A DNA stretch of 64,000 nucleotides from Thermophilibacter provencensis. GTDB lineage: Bacteria > Actinomycetota > Coriobacteriia > Coriobacteriales > Atopobiaceae. This document shows positions 19,106 through 58,400 of this stretch, piece by piece. The stretch is from the NCBI RefSeq assembly GCF_900128445.1, contig NZ_LT671417.1, positions 2,243,201 to 2,307,200 on the forward strand, given 5' to 3'. The notes beneath the pieces were generated by a model. The model was given only the letters and a program-made list of their open reading frames with translations, was not told the DNA's origin and did no database searches. Within the stretch, counting starts at the first letter, position 1. Each line of letters begins with the position of its first letter. The translations under genes were made by a program, and so were the position numbers.

Positions 19106-19798
19106 ATGCAGCGCATACTTCTCGCGGAGGATGACCAGCTCATCGTGGAGGGGCTCTCGGAGCTCCTCGCCAACGAGGGCTTTGTCGTTGACTCCTCCCC
19201 CACCCAGGCGGGCGCCGTCGAGCTCGCCTGCCGGCCCGGCGCGGGCTACGCCCTCGCGCTCGTGGACCTCACGCTCGCAGAGGGCAACGGGTTTGCGGTC
19301 TGCAACGCCATCAAGACCGCGGCGCCCGACGTGCCGGTGATCTTCCTCACCGCGGCCGACGACGAGCTCAACACCGTGACGGGCCTCTCCATGGGGGCGG
19401 ACGACTACGTGGCCAAGCCCTTCCGCCCGCGCGAGCTCGTGGCCCGCATCCACGCCGCCATCCGCCGCGCGCACCCCGAGCGCACCGTGCTGCGCCTGGG
19501 GCGGGTTGCCATCGACCCCGACCGCGCGCACGTTGAGCTGGACGGCCAGGAGGTCGCGCTCTCCGCGCTCGAGTACCGGCTGCTGCTCCTCTTTGCCAAG
19601 AACGCGGGACGGCTGGTCACGCGCGACATGATGCGCGAGGCGCTCTGGGACGACGCGGGCGCCTACGTGGAGGAGAACACGCTCTCCGTCTACATCAAGC
19701 GCCTGCGCGACAAGCTCGAGGACGACCCGTCCGACCCGCAGCTCATCGTCACCGTCCGCGGCCTGGGGTACCGTGCCGGCGGGGAGGGCGCGGCGTGA
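19106..19798 (+). CDS. OmpR-family response regulator of the FtsX-exporter locus
   Basis: The product has 230 residues. The receiver has the acidic pair in LLAEDDQLIVEG, the phospho-acceptor in LVDLTLAEGNG and the Lys in YVAKPFRP. The winged-helix domain ends VTVRGLGYRAGG. The gene overlaps the kinase start (GTGA). This arrangement (regulator, kinase, FtsX exporter) is that of BceRS-BceAB and related antimicrobial-peptide detoxification modules. Confidence 0.9.
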   Translation: MQRILLAEDDQLIVEGLSELLANEGFVVDSSPTQAGAVELACRPGAGYALALVDLTLAEGNGFAVCNAIKTAAPDVPVIFLTAADDELNTVTGLSMGADDYVAKPFRPRELVARIHAAIRRAHPERTVLRLGRVAIDPDRAHVELDGQEVALSALEYRLLLLFAKNAGRLVTRDMMREALWDDAGAYVEENTLSVYIKRLRDKLEDDPSDPQLIVTVRGLGYRAGGEGAA

Positions 19799-20847
19799 TC
19801 GGAAGGAACCGCGAGGTGCTCCGGACCGTCGCGGCGTTTCTCGCCGTGGGAGCGGCGTGCGCGCTCGCGGCCTGGCTCGCCGTGGGCGCCGAGGCGGCGG
19901 CCTGCGTCGGGTGCGCGACGGCGGCGCTGCTCGCCGTCCTGCTCCTCGCGACCAGGGCCCGCTACCGCGCGCTCGCGCGGCTCGCGGAGCAGGTGGACGA
20001 GGTGCTGCACGGCGGGCGCGACGTGAGCTTCGAGCGCATGCGCGAGGGGGAGCTCGCGATCCTCGCCTCCGAGCTCGACAAGATGAGGAGCAGGCTCACC
20101 CTCGCCGCCGAGGACCTCGAACGCGAGAAGAACGCGCTTGCCGACGCGCTGGCCGACATATCGCACCAGCTCAAGACCCCGCTCACCTCGCTCGGCCTCA
20201 TGACGTCGCTCGTGCGCGGCCGGCTCGCCGCCGCAGGCGGGCACGAGGCGGAGGTCGCGCGGCTGCGCACGATGGAGCGTCTCGAGGACCGCGTGGAGTG
20301 GCTCGTCTCGTCCCTGCTCAAGCTCGCGCGCATCGACGCCGGCGCGGTGAGGCTCGCGCGGACCCGCGTGGACGGAGCGGAGCTCGTCCGGCACGCCGCC
20401 GAGCCGCTCGCCGTGGCCTTCGACCTCGCGGACGTGGCGCTCGTGTGCGACGTGCGCCCGGGCGCCGGCTTTGAGGGGGACCTCGCCTGGACCGCCGAGG
20501 CGCTCGAGAACGTCCTCAAGAACTGCCTCGAGCACACGCCCCCCGGCGGCGAGGTACGCGTAAGCTGCACGGAGGACGCGCTCGCCTTCCGCCTGCGCGT
20601 CGAGGACACGGGGCCCGGCATCCCCGAGCGGGACCTCCCGCACGTGTTCGAGCGCTTCTATCGCGGCGCCCCCGCTCCCGGCGCGGCGGCCGTGCCGGGC
20701 GGCTCCGAGGTCGACCCCGCCGGCGTGGGCATCGGCCTCGCGCTCGCGCGAAGCCTCGTGACGGCGCAGGGCGGCTCCATCCGCGCCGGCAACGCGCCCG
20801 GCGGCGGGGCGCGCTTCGACATCGTCTTCTTCAGGGCCACGGTGTGA
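19795..20847 (+). CDS. Sensor histidine kinase of the FtsX-exporter locus
   Basis: The product has 350 residues. Two helices at about 8-28 and 31-52 are separated by only a few residues, so there is no sensor domain outside the cell. The H-box is ISHQLKTPLTSLGLM, the N-box ENVLKNCLEHTPPGG, the G1 box VEDTGPGIPE and the G2 box GVGIGLALARSLV; all are intact. The GTG start overlaps the regulator stop. The lack of an outside domain is typical of BceS-like kinases that sense through the exporter. Confidence 0.9.
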   Translation: MIGRNREVLRTVAAFLAVGAACALAAWLAVGAEAAACVGCATAALLAVLLLATRARYRALARLAEQVDEVLHGGRDVSFERMREGELAILASELDKMRSRLTLAAEDLEREKNALADALADISHQLKTPLTSLGLMTSLVRGRLAAAGGHEAEVARLRTMERLEDRVEWLVSSLLKLARIDAGAVRLARTRVDGAELVRHAAEPLAVAFDLADVALVCDVRPGAGFEGDLAWTAEALENVLKNCLEHTPPGGEVRVSCTEDALAFRLRVEDTGPGIPERDLPHVFERFYRGAPAPGAAAVPGGSEVDPAGVGIGLALARSLVTAQGGSIRAGNAPGGGARFDIVFFRATV

Positions 20848-20865: not shown

Positions 20866-20963
20866 CGTGCGAAGGGGGCAGCGTGCAAAGGGGACAGTCA
20901 CTTTTGCACACAAGCACCTGTGCAAAAGTGACTGTCCCCTTTGCACGCTGCCCCCTTCGCACG
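20866..20963. repeat. Family B palindromic repeat, copy B1 (extended)
   Basis: A perfect inverted repeat with 45-bp arms (20866-20910, 20919-20963) and an 8-nt loop. The inner unit carries GTGCAAAGGGGACAGTCAC; an outer unit CGTGCGAAGGGGGCAG is fused to it. It separates the two-component genes from the exporter genes and ends 5 bp before the promoter box at 20969. Confidence 0.92.
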
Positions 20964-21055: not shown

Positions 21056-21736
<681 letters not shown>

Positions 21737-21738
21737 CC

Positions 21739-24700
21739 GTGGCGACCAACAGGCCGTGCAAAGGGGACAGGCACTTTTGCACGCGTAGCCGTGCAAAAGT
21801 GCCTGTCCCCTTTGCACGGTCCGTGTTCGTGAGGTACACGCTCCGCTCGCTCGCGGCCAACCGGGTGCGGACCGCCGTCACCGTTGTGGGCATCGCGCTC
21901 GCGACGGGCCTGCTCATGGCCGTGCTCACGAGCGTGACGAGCCTCCAGAACGGCCTCGCCAACCAGAGCCGCGAGAGCGGCGGCGTCTGGCAGGTGGAGT
22001 TCAGGGAGACCGACGACGGCGAGCTCCAGGCCCTGCGCGACGCCGCCGGCGATCTGCTCGACCGGCTCGCCCTTCGACGGGACCTCGGGGCCGCGCCCTT
22101 CTCCGCCGAGGACGCGGAGCGCCGGGGCACCTACCTCTCGGTGCTGACGCTCCCCGAGGAGCAGGGCGGCACGGCCCGCGCCAGGGGCGACCTCGACTAC
22201 GAGGTGACGCCCGCGCCCACGCTCGCGTCAGGGCGGCTCCCCGAGAGGGACGGCGAGATAGCCCTGGACTCCGGCCTCATGGGGGCCGAGCTCGCTGAGG
22301 GCGCCTCGGAGCTCCCCGGCACGGAGGCGGGCGTGTCGGCGGACGGGCCGATCGAGGTGGGCTCCACGGTCACGCTCTCCCTCGGCAGGCGCGTCGCCCA
22401 CTTCGAGGACGGCACGAGCCAGGAGGTCGGCGCGGAGACCGGAGTGATGTACCAGAGCGTCATCGAGGGGACCGACCCCGACGGCACCCCCAACGTCGAG
22501 CCCGTCCAGATCGCCGAGACCCTCGATGGCGTCTCCGCGCCGCGCTCCTACACCGTCGTCGGGTTCGTCGAGCCCGACTGGTCACTCCCGGGCACCGTGG
22601 CCTACGTGAGCCCCGACGACACGGGCGGCGCCGCCTCGACGCGCGCCGACGCGTACTTCTCGACAAGCTGCGCGAGCCACGAGGAGCTCACCTCCCTCGT
22701 GAATACCGTGCGCCCCGCCGCGGGCGCACGGCCCACGGTCCTGAACGGCGGCCTTCTCGCCTACGAGGGGCTCACGGGAGACCGGCGCGTCTTCGACAGC
22801 CTCGGCATGTTCGCGGCCACGCTCGCGACGGTGATCGTCGTCGCCGCCGTGAGCCTCATCTCGAACGCCTTCACCATCTCCGTCTCGGAGCGCACGCGCC
22901 AGTTCGGCCTGCTCTCCTCGCTCGGCGCCTCACGGCGCCAGCTGAGGGGCGCCGTCCTCGTGGAGGCGGGGGCGCTCGGGCTCGTGGGTATACCGCTCGG
23001 CGTGGCGCTCGGAATCGCGGGCGCCGCGGCCGCCTTCGCCGTCACCGGCACCGGCTGGGCGCGCATCGTGGGGACCGACACCGCCGTGACGCTCGTCGTG
23101 CGCCCGTGGTGCCTCTGGCTCACGGTGCTTCTCGCCTCCGCGACGCTGCTCGTGAGCGCCGCGGTGCCGGCACTCCGCGCGGGACGCGTCTCCGCCGTCG
23201 ACGCCATCCGCGGCTCGCGCGACGTCCGGCCGGGCAGGCGGCTGCGCCGCGCCTTCTCGCGCCGTCGCCGCGCCATGGACGACTTCTCGGAGGACGGCAG
23301 CAGGCCGCGCGGGCTCGCAGCGCGCCTCGGCGGCGTCCCGGCGTTCCTCGCGCGGCGCACGCTCGCCGCCAGCGCGGGCAAGGCGCGCGTGGCCGTGGTC
23401 TCCCTCGCCGTCTCGGTGGCGCTGCTCGTGACGGCGGGCGTGACGGGAGACATGCTCTCGGGCGCGACGGGCGCGGGCCCCCTCACCATGACGGGCTACG
23501 ACCTCGAGCTCGTGGCCGCCGACGAATCCGACGCGCTGGAGGCCCCCGAGCGCTCCGCAGTCCTCGACGGGGCGGACGAGGCGCTCGAGGAGATCGCCGC
23601 GCTCGACGGCGTCGAGGGCGCCGCCTACGTCTGCGAGTCGTCGACGACCGTGCGCCTCTCGGGAGGGCTTCTCGGCTGGAACGCGTCCGCGGACGCGGGC
23701 GGGGAGCTCTCGGGCAGCCTCGCCGTCGCCGCGGACGGGATCGCCACCGCGAACGTGCACCTCGTCGACGACGCCACCTGGCGCGCGCTCGCGGAGGCAG
23801 GGCACGTCTCCCCCGAGGCGGCCGACCCCGCGCGCCTCTCCGCCCTGCTCGTCGGAACCGTGGACGTAAACGACGGGGTTCGCTACGGCACGCGCCAGGC
23901 GCTAGCCGCCGGAACGACGGGCACCGTCGAGCTCCTCGTCCTCGAGGGCAGGGAGGGCTATGACGACCCCCTCGTCTCCTGGGGGCTCGACGAGGCGAGC
24001 GCCTACTACCCGCCGCTCTCGGGGTCGGACGGCGCCGAGGGTATCGAGCTCCCCGTGAGCGAGGTCGCGAGCGTCGTCGCGGAGGTTCCCACGACCGTGG
24101 TCCCCGACGACCTCGGGAGGGACTTTCCCGTGGCGGCGGCGCAGATGCGCGCGCAGTTCCCCACGCTCGTGATGCCCGCCCGGGCGGTCCGCGCGTCCGC
24201 GAGCGCCCTCGGGGCGCTTCGCCAGGGTCGCCAGACGACCTGGGCGTACTTCTACGCGCGCCTCGCCGAGGGTGCCGACGCCTCCCAGGCGCTGAGGGGG
24301 ATGACCGACGTCGCGACCGGCCTGCCCGGCGTGGAGTCGCTCGGGACCACCAACCTCGCCGCCGTCCAGCGCGACGCCCGCGCGGTGTCGTTCACGGTGC
24401 GCGTCTTCCTGTACTGCTTCGCCGCCATTCTCGCCCTCATCGCGGTGGCCAACGTCTTCAACACCATCGCCTCGGGCATGATGCTGCGCGCGCGCGAGTT
24501 CGCCGCGCTGCGCTCCGCCGGCATGGGCGAGCGCGCGTTCCGGCGGATGATCCTCGTGGAGTGCGCCGATTACGCGCTGCGCGGGCTCGCGCTCGGCGCC
24601 TTGCTCTCTCTCGTCGTGGAGCTCTTCCTGTGGCAGGCGATGTCGCTCTCCGTGAGCGGGATCACGCCCGCGGTGCCCTGGGCGCACATCGCCATGGCGT

Positions 24701-24801
24701 TTGCCCTGGTGGTGGCCGTCCTCGCCGCAAGCGCCATCTACGCGCTCAGGAAAACGCACGCGATGAACCTCGTGGAGGCGCTGCGCGCCGACGCGCTCTA
24801 G
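21739..24801 (+). CDS. Large FtsX-type ABC permease (BceB-like), with translated repeat at N-terminus
   Basis: A 1020-residue permease with two FtsX modules. Helices lie near the N-terminus, around residues 365-455 and 490-510, again near 555-575, and in the last 150 residues; large extracytoplasmic regions lie between them. GTG 21739 has GAGG at ideal spacing. Reading from it, codons 6-27 are repeat B2, followed by the family-like start VFVRYTLRSLAANRVRT. Alternative GTG codons at 21823 and 21829 follow the repeat directly but lack any Shine-Dalgarno. Its partner ATPase lies upstream with a 2-bp gap. The substrate is probably an antimicrobial peptide, inferred from the module. Confidence 0.85.
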   Translation: MATNRPCKGDRHFCTRSRAKVPVPFARSVFVRYTLRSLAANRVRTAVTVVGIALATGLLMAVLTSVTSLQNGLANQSRESGGVWQVEFRETDDGELQALRDAAGDLLDRLALRRDLGAAPFSAEDAERRGTYLSVLTLPEEQGGTARARGDLDYEVTPAPTLASGRLPERDGEIALDSGLMGAELAEGASELPGTEAGVSADGPIEVGSTVTLSLGRRVAHFEDGTSQEVGAETGVMYQSVIEGTDPDGTPNVEPVQIAETLDGVSAPRSYTVVGFVEPDWSLPGTVAYVSPDDTGGAASTRADAYFSTSCASHEELTSLVNTVRPAAGARPTVLNGGLLAYEGLTGDRRVFDSLGMFAATLATVIVVAAVSLISNAFTISVSERTRQFGLLSSLGASRRQLRGAVLVEAGALGLVGIPLGVALGIAGAAAAFAVTGTGWARIVGTDTAVTLVVRPWCLWLTVLLASATLLVSAAVPALRAGRVSAVDAIRGSRDVRPGRRLRRAFSRRRRAMDDFSEDGSRPRGLAARLGGVPAFLARRTLAASAGKARVAVVSLAVSVALLVTAGVTGDMLSGATGAGPLTMTGYDLELVAADESDALEAPERSAVLDGADEALEEIAALDGVEGAAYVCESSTTVRLSGGLLGWNASADAGGELSGSLAVAADGIATANVHLVDDATWRALAEAGHVSPEAADPARLSALLVGTVDVNDGVRYGTRQALAAGTTGTVELLVLEGREGYDDPLVSWGLDEASAYYPPLSGSDGAEGIELPVSEVASVVAEVPTTVVPDDLGRDFPVAAAQMRAQFPTLVMPARAVRASASALGALRQGRQTTWAYFYARLAEGADASQALRGMTDVATGLPGVESLGTTNLAAVQRDARAVSFTVRVFLYCFAAILALIAVANVFNTIASGMMLRAREFAALRSAGMGERAFRRMILVECADYALRGLALGALLSLVVELFLWQAMSLSVSGITPAVPWAHIAMAFALVVAVLAASAIYALRKTHAMNLVEALRADAL
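21754..21819. repeat. Family B palindromic repeat, copy B2, inside coding sequence
   Basis: Arms 21754-21783 and 21790-21819 match over 30 bp around the loop CGTAGC. The element is 66 bp, exactly 22 codons, and begins at a codon boundary of the permease frame that opens at 21739. It encodes PCKGDRHFCTRSRAKVPVPF and two more residues. It has no stop in this frame. Confidence 0.9.
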
Positions 24802-27824: not shown

Positions 27825-27902
27825 GGGCCGTGCGAAGGGGACAGTCACTTTTGCACGCAATCCACCTTGCGTGCAAAAGTGACTGTCCCCTTCGCACGGC
27901 CC
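27825..27902. repeat. Family B palindromic repeat, copy B3
   Basis: Perfect 36-bp arms (27825-27860, 27867-27902) with loop TCCACC; the core is GCGAAGGGGACAGTCAC. It lies between the anchored protein and the reductase promoter (-10 TACAAT at 27936-27941). Confidence 0.92.
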
Positions 27903-31746: not shown

Positions 31747-31821
31747 CTCTGCAAATTGGGGACAGTCCCCAATTTGCAGAAAGGTTTTATGTGAAATGGG
31801 GACTGTCCCCAATTTGCAGAG
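31747..31821. repeat. Family B-like palindromic repeat, copy B4, within the metal operon
   Basis: Outer arms 31747-31770 and 31798-31821 (CTCTGCAAATTGGGGACAGT and CCCC) match perfectly. The left half is itself palindromic (CTGCAAATTGGGGACAGTCC and so on to 31779). It starts 1 bp after the HMA stop and ends 9 bp before the ATPase start, where its last bases help form the site GAGGAG. Confidence 0.88.
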
Positions 31822-33747: not shown

Positions 33748-33840
33748 GCGTGAAGGGGGGCGTGCGAAGGGGACGGTCACTTTTGCACGAATTCTACCCG
33801 TGCAAAAGTGACTGTCCCCTTCGCACGCCCCCCTTCACGC
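33748..33840. repeat. Family B palindromic repeat, copy B5 (extended)
   Basis: 42-bp arms (33748-33789, 33799-33840) with one mismatch and a 9-nt loop. As in B1, an outer GCGTGAAGGGGG unit is fused to the inner GTGCGAAGGGGACGGTCAC unit. It lies in the convergent gap between the ATPase and a glutaredoxin gene, ending 1 bp before the latter's stop. Confidence 0.9.
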
Positions 33841-54993: not shown

Positions 54994-55102
54994 GACCTGA
55001 CAAAGGTGACAGGGTCATCTGTCATGTTTTTCAGGCGTGCAAAGGGGACAGGCACTTTCGCACGGGCGCGCCCGTGCGAAAGTGCCTGTCCCCTTTGCAC
55101 GC
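54994..55102. repeat. Nested repeat: family A left half followed by complete family B palindrome
   Basis: 54994-55033 is the left arm and loop of family A (GACCTGACAAAGGTGACAGG, TCATCTGTCATGTTTTTCA). Just where its right arm should continue, a complete 68-bp family B palindrome (55035-55102) begins; its arms of 34 bp are perfect with no loop (centre GGGCGCGCCC). No family A right arm follows. The B copy therefore replaced or truncated an A copy. Confidence 0.9.
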
Positions 55103-58335: not shown

Positions 58336-58400
58336 CGTGCAATGGGGACAGGCACTTTCGCACGGACCCTCCGTGCGAAAGTGCCTGTCCCCTTTGCACG
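58336..58400. repeat. Family B palindromic repeat, copy B7
   Basis: 31-bp arms (58336-58366, 58370-58400) with one mismatch and loop CCC; core GGGGACAGGCACTTTCGCAC. A stray half end (CCCTTTGCAC) follows. It lies 27 bp after the lipoprotein stop. Confidence 0.9.

Follow-up and report, generated by a model that had tools for sequence, protein, structure and literature searches.

The gene for an FtsX-type ABC permease in a 2.63-Mb Thermophilibacter genome (Atopobiaceae; hereafter G000) contains a 66-bp mobile palindrome that lies in frame with the coding sequence. We propose that this palindrome is a REPIN, that it is probably translated within the N-terminal tail of the permease, and that it represents one case of a genus-wide turnover of REPs at tolerant sites. 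On the best reading of the sequences, REPINs would be tolerated and translated in disordered protein tails and linkers, with the frame held by the host protein, and would be turned over there repeatedly.

The permease palindrome and its REP family

The permease operon lies on contig 3 of G000 and encodes, in order, a response regulator, a histidine kinase, an ABC ATPase and the FtsX-type permease; it was examined within a window, the whole stretch of DNA analysed, of 64,000 nucleotides (Table 1). The genus was assigned by comparing positions of U32 peptidase matches with those in named records, by which we equate G012 with Olsenella sp. SW781, G018 with 'Olsenella uli' An733, G014 with Thermophilibacter provencensis, G008 with T. 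mediterraneus and G040 with T. gallinarum. The permease matches the FtsX domain model well above its cut-off. An initial annotation had placed the permease start at GTG 21739 with a GAGG upstream, and both are present, the GTG opening two bases after the TAG stop codon of the ATPase gene (21734–21736). The repeat does begin at codon 6, measure 66 nt and run in frame without a stop, as had been described. It consists of two inverted 27-nt units, an 8-nt loop and 2 bp of stem on each side, and is followed by TCC and then by two further GTG codons. Its RNA fold has an energy of −88.5 kcal/mol, against −51.3 ± 4.0 in shuffles (z −9.3), and the long hairpin begins about 13 nt past the permease start codon. 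In Rfam, the repeat returned hairpin look-alikes, all scoring below gathering thresholds.

Table 1. Features of the permease operon in G000, numbered from the first nucleotide of the window
Feature	Position	Strand	Remarks
Response regulator	19106–19798	+	same operon as permease
Histidine kinase	19795–20847	+	same operon as permease
T1 REPIN, kinase–ATPase gap	20883–20946	.	by eye the sole GGGGACAG-type REP in this gap among 23 species
ABC ATPase	21056–21736	+	TTG start at 21056 probable; relatives have ATG there
FtsX-type ABC permease	21739–24801	+	open reading frame of 1020 codons, start GTG; PF02687, 96.8 bits (cut-off 25.5)
In-frame REPIN	21754–21819	+	22 codons; full 66-bp palindrome, permease codons 6–27
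First T1 REP unit, 27 nt	21756–21782	+	contig C3:2264956–2264982
Second T1 REP unit, inverted, 27 nt	21791–21817	−	
Alternative GTG 3' of repeat	21823–21825	+	without a Shine-Dalgarno-like word before it
Second alternative GTG	21829–21831	+	

The repeat had earlier been described as mobile-looking. Its copy number exceeds chance: 148 units of the T1 type (GTGCAAAGGGGACAGKCACTTTTGCAC) occur in G000 at three mismatches or fewer, and a reversed control pattern gives none. T1 is a short palindromic unit in high copy, as in REP/REPIN–RAYT systems, and the inverted two-unit arrangement of a REPIN is found at 34 of 44 T1 places. Most T1 places are extragenic: among 80 examined, which contain only part of the 148 units, 72 were scored as intergenic, five as inside genes and three as lying across gene ends, the intergenic figure wrongly taking in the permease copy because the codon-score gene caller prefers a later permease start. 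Four further intergenic T1 REPINs lie in the window (27830–27897, 33762–33826, 55037–55100 and 58337–58399).

Four genes for Y1 transposases were found in G000. The RAYT gene L039, a 261-codon open frame, scores 57.9 bits against PF01797, over the cut-off, and 75.3 bits against the narrower RAYT model NF047646, just under the cut-off of 80. It is flanked on both sides by inverted T1 REPs, at −128 and +705, as a cognate RAYT gene would be. A second RAYT gene, L042, is flanked by a REP family other than T1; a REP pair of that family (TGCAAATTGGGGACAGTCCCCAATTTGCA) also occurs at 31749–31819 of the window. Two more Y1-transposase genes, L040 and L041, lie near other palindromes, and by eye L040 seems to lie in a disrupted frame and L041 to be truncated. 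We propose that the palindrome in the N-terminal tail of the permease is a REPIN, a non-autonomous hairpin of the REP/RAYT type, and that such elements are probably mobilised by a RAYT.

REPs in protein tails, interdomain linkers and operon gaps

A survey comprised 44 loci drawn from 29 of 31 matching genomes of the genus; without one duplicate and seven divergent paralogues with six-residue tails, 36 a/b-type starts remained, all orthologous or tandem-paralogous. Permease N-terminal tails are 10 to 41 residues long, and a REP is present in 19 of the 36, being recognised in 18 by its core pattern and in G018, where it is decayed, by eye. These REPs belong to six types (T1, T4, T7, T8, T9 and T10), with T7 in two arm versions. 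A palindrome score of at least 11 was reached by 14 of 43 permease starts and by 5 of 860 random segments, the remaining REP calls resting on the core pattern and not on this score. A typical REP-free tail reads MAKHFKGEKDRALAAAVAPRGN, and the 22 residues of the repeat appear in none of the 17 REP-free a/b-type tails shown. Removal of the repeat joins MATNR to SVFVRYT, as the initial annotation had stated; this holds as arithmetic and is only a possible history, since the tails of REP-free relatives differ, and a clean empty site was not found among the relatives, whose REP-free tails hold other sequence. In an AlphaFold2 model of the permease (mean pLDDT 67.8), residues 1–27 fall below 50 and the first helix runs from residue 29; the predicted product would carry a disordered tail of 28 residues ahead of that helix.

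A second host is a U32 peptidase (PF01136, PF12392), in which G000 has a T1 REPIN in mid-protein, at about residues 558–580. This peptidase is 73–91% identical to that of G000 in 15 aligned relatives, with a freely varying linker just past the DUF3656 domain. REPs of six arm types occupy the linker in 19 of 30 genus loci and none was found in the other 11; a palindrome score of at least 11 was obtained for 16 of the 30, and three copies that are decayed or short were called by eye (L114, L126, L139), the types, decayed calls and tree labels all being assigned by hand. Of 1100 random segments of the same length, the best scored 15, and the 99th percentile was 10. All 30 genus linkers are multiples of three and free of stops, with the protein continuing on both sides, and a chance open frame was rejected for U32 on these grounds. 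A palindrome scoring 11 or more was seen in two (L205, L214) of 55 further named U32 loci, which come mostly from other genera, two or more of them (L200, L204) again from this genus. The AlphaFold2 model of the peptidase (mean pLDDT 69.9) has residues 561–578 below 50, between a helix that ends at residue 559 and a strand at 583; because the permease and U32 models both contain other low-pLDDT stretches, the structural evidence is only supportive.

REPs were also found in frame in other proteins. At the N-terminus of the indolepyruvate oxidoreductase beta subunit (iorB), a single 27-nt REP occurs in 7 of 29 loci, a count that leaves out a weaker match in G043. Six of these are T1 and one is T10, occupying identical nucleotides; one of the 29 tails reaches a palindrome score of 11, and the other calls were made by the core pattern. 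In a two-domain ABC ATPase (L371–L400), the core pattern detects an in-frame linker REP, of one of three types, at 11 of 30 loci; a score of 11 is reached by a different set of eleven among the 30, and by 9 of 600 random segments. Additionally, terminal residues are REP-coded in G000 for that ATPase and for five more proteins: TsaD, a second POR-domain protein, a DHH protein, a tRNA-editing domain protein and a member of the integrase family. In three species, the end of a POR-domain gene lies within a T1 REPIN (L095 in G000, L306 in G019 and L307 in G008), which gives the last residues and the stop codon.

The peptides so encoded are not constant. One frame of T1 yields CKGDRHFC in the G000 permease and CKGDSHFC in the U32 peptidase; the other two give VQRGQALLH in iorB and, for the G012 and G019 permeases, AKGTGTFA. 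A functional role of the encoded peptide was rejected on the strength of these three frames, used in different genes and species, and the REPIN peptide itself appears to be unselected and free to vary. The frame is probably kept by selection on the host protein; in the permease, the REPIN would stay in frame because the downstream permease is needed.

Intergenic gaps were picked in the same way as the coding sites, by the presence of a T1 REP in G000. A palindrome score of at least 11 was obtained in 21 of 28 loci in the gap 5' of iorA (POR_N domain; random segments, 0 of 560) and in 18 of 28 in the gap 5' of a ketoacyl synthase gene, here called fabF (random, 2 of 560). Eight REP types are present at the iorA gap and four at the fabF gap by core patterns, which mislabel at least one palindrome (G045, iorA) and overlook the G018 copy at the permease. 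In the kinase–ATPase gap, the G000 element is by eye the only one of its type (1 of 23 species), and any palindrome scoring at least 11 is present in 4 of 23; this rare occupancy makes it doubtful that REPs saturate all permissive space. The presence of different REP families at the same site holds for coding and non-coding sites, and not for every site.

Turnover of REP families at a site

The permease tree requires the REP state to have changed 12 times or more, and presence or absence five times or more; the corresponding figures for the U32 tree are 15 and 7. Close sisters differ: at U32, G043 has T5 and a G013 contig T2 (the G013 assembly being rated 5% contaminated), and at fabF, G006 has T3 and G017 has T2. 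The REP type at a site tends to match the family resident in the genome. Of 143 pairs of sites from one genome, 54 agreed in type, compared with a mean of 18.7 and a maximum of 34 after shuffling (0 of 5000 shuffles reached 54), where the shuffles take no account of how species are related and include two linked tandem permeases among the seven sites. T1 occupies a coding site in seven genomes, all of them within the eight that have at least 20 T1 units. Against such a match, two T7 carriers have few T7 units, G014 (7) and G009 (3). The outer arms of T7 read GGG in 6 of 7 loci fetched from G006 and GAT in 8 of 9 from G017, and those of the permeases do likewise. Homogenisation of all REPs within a genome was considered and rejected, as different families occupy different sites of one genome. 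In the tandem permeases L047/L072 (G019) and L052/L076 (G043), the two copies share a REPIN type with the loop reversed as if flipped, exactly in G019 and with one mismatch in G043. The site, frame and copy number of these elements, their change of family and the REP-flanked RAYT gene are all directly visible in sequence.

How one family comes to follow another may be explained in more than one way. Turnover may consist solely of independent insertions at a small number of permissive sites, where copies decay and new ones insert with no tie to the old REP; this account is compatible with our reading and has close to an even chance of being correct. Different arm types at one site and the match between REP types and resident families fit it, and the decayed copies favour it. 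However, the boundaries coincide across families: T1 and T10 share the same 27 nt in iorB, and at fabF the families are bounded by one common stop codon on one side and a common GGGAG on the other. These shared boundaries favour exchange in place. The kinase–ATPase gap is, moreover, seldom hit. Simple insertion is further opposed by the U32 linkers, whose median length is 29.5 residues with a REP and 29 without; this equality is easier to reconcile with replacement or in-place decay than with simple addition. The succession of families agrees with re-insertion at tolerant sites as well as with in-place exchange.

More tentatively, the sites may be fixed addresses, at which later REP families replace the resident REP in place in linkers and operon gaps alike. 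This would proceed by RAYT-driven exchange of REP for REP or by conversion by resident copies. If true, proteins would receive a stream of new in-frame linkers at constant length, and old REP-derived linkers would decay into ordinary coding sequence.

Possibly, much of the scatter of types comes from exchange of gene segments among species and among tandem copies, an account that is likewise compatible with our reading and that we regard as doubtful at this breadth. Import of gene segments does explain some cases. G017 and G019 have an identical 79-nt element in the two-domain ABC ATPase linker, a G014 gene that belongs to another clade has a clade-a-like tail (MAAKHLR followed by GTG), and tandem permeases share a type in four of the five genomes with a REP in both. 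Segment exchange alone, however, does not yield the agreement with the resident subtype.

Selection of the hairpin for an RNA-level role, slowing ribosomes at the permease start or at domain boundaries with any REP family serving the purpose, is unlikely. Such a role would be consistent with the strong fold (z −9.3), with the long occupancy of the iorA (21/28) and fabF (18/28) gaps and near absence from the kinase–ATPase gap, and with the position of the U32 linker directly after the DUF3656 domain. Yet a REP is lacking in 17 of the 36 a/b-type permease starts and in 11 of the 30 U32 linkers, the number of units in carriers varies between one and two, and G018 and G024 retain decayed copies. 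We favour tolerance of REPINs over function: tolerant sites, namely protein tails, interdomain linkers and short operon gaps, would stay occupied by REPs as the family changes.

Probable translation of the permease tail and relation to known repeats

An in-frame ATG lies just past the upstream stop codon in 33 of the 36 permease starts, and G000 has a GTG there; for G020 and G042 no ATG was returned by the script. The script seeks an in-frame start, so that an open tail is obtained by construction and the weight rests on the position of the start next to the upstream stop; the codon-score gene caller was set aside for N-terminal cases. This upstream start is kept both with and without a REP. 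Among the 19 REP carriers, GAGG or GGAGG precedes it in 12, and a Shine-Dalgarno-like word is absent before it in four; no such word precedes the first of the later codons in any of the 19. The initial annotation had noted that the GTG starts after the repeat lack a ribosome site, and in G000 none was found within 20 nt upstream of 21823. In two REP carriers, G003 and G002, the 12 codons that follow the REP include neither ATG nor GTG nor TTG, and the REP must therefore be translated there. In L051 (G010) and L053 (G008), a single REP overlaps the permease start, with the ATG inside the palindrome.

That translation begins past the repeat, at 21823 or 21829, and that the REPIN is an untranslated intergenic hairpin, is quite improbable. 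In its favour, a GTG stands directly past the REP in 17 of 19 REP-bearing permeases (and in 3 of 17 REP-free ones), the codon-score gene caller also chooses the later start, the hairpin is close to the upstream start and could hinder initiation, and part of PMC3733652 holds that many REPs at the 5' ends of open reading frames may be non-coding. Against it, a later start lacks the Shine-Dalgarno-like words found upstream, disregards a start conserved with and without a REP, is unavailable within 12 codons in G003 and G002, and cannot account for the mid-protein REPs of U32. The initial proposal that the repeat is translated from 21739 is supported by the starts of relatives, by G003 and G002 and by the U32 REPs. 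Initiation would occur at this conserved position beside the ATPase stop, and the ribosome would pass through the REPIN.

The elements resemble REP/REPIN–RAYT systems as outlined in the relevant parts of PMC3116915, PMC8266576 and PMC3733652: high-copy short palindromes, often as inverted doublets and mostly intergenic, with a RAYT (TnpA-REP) gene flanked by the same REPs. Unlike the GTAG/CGTC tags named in the title of PMC3733652, the T1 unit begins with GTGC and ends with GCAC. A further difference from the systems covered in those parts is that in Thermophilibacter the REP family varies at intragenic sites that are shared genus-wide. The portion of PMC3733652 considered describes REPs within open reading frames, encoding 20 to 30 residues, and doubts many of the N-terminal ones; it also records two Xanthomonas species whose recB genes have unlike REPs at roughly one position. 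Compared with that precedent, several families per linker are seen here in about 30 genomes and four genes, and the REP type is compared with the resident families of the genome. According to an excerpt of PMC3686654, different REP classes occur beside orthologous RAYT genes; the class changes at a conserved place in both cases, the place there being the RAYT locus itself and in Thermophilibacter ordinary genes and operon gaps.

Rickettsia palindromic elements, as presented in part of PMC10969869, are in-frame palindromes of about 150 bp that occur in many genes and encode a conserved peptide. The Thermophilibacter REPs likewise lie in frame inside protein-coding genes. Unlike those elements, they measure 27 to about 100 bp and are accompanied by RAYT genes, and T1 elements, shorter and read in three frames, lack both the length and the conserved peptide of the Rickettsia elements. 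Searches of open-licence papers turned up nothing on REPs within Atopobiaceae coding linkers. In-frame REPs are already in print, and coding sites that persist through the turnover of REP families look like a novel variation on them.

For gene callers, these sites carry a warning, as the later permease start chosen by the codon-score caller is probably wrong. Although extragenic by name, REPs turn up in frame again and again in the same protein linkers across Thermophilibacter. The succession of family after family at one address makes the turnover of REP populations testable, and with it the question of whether proteins regularly gain new linkers from mobile hairpins. Short mobile hairpins may keep supplying new linker sequence to proteins.
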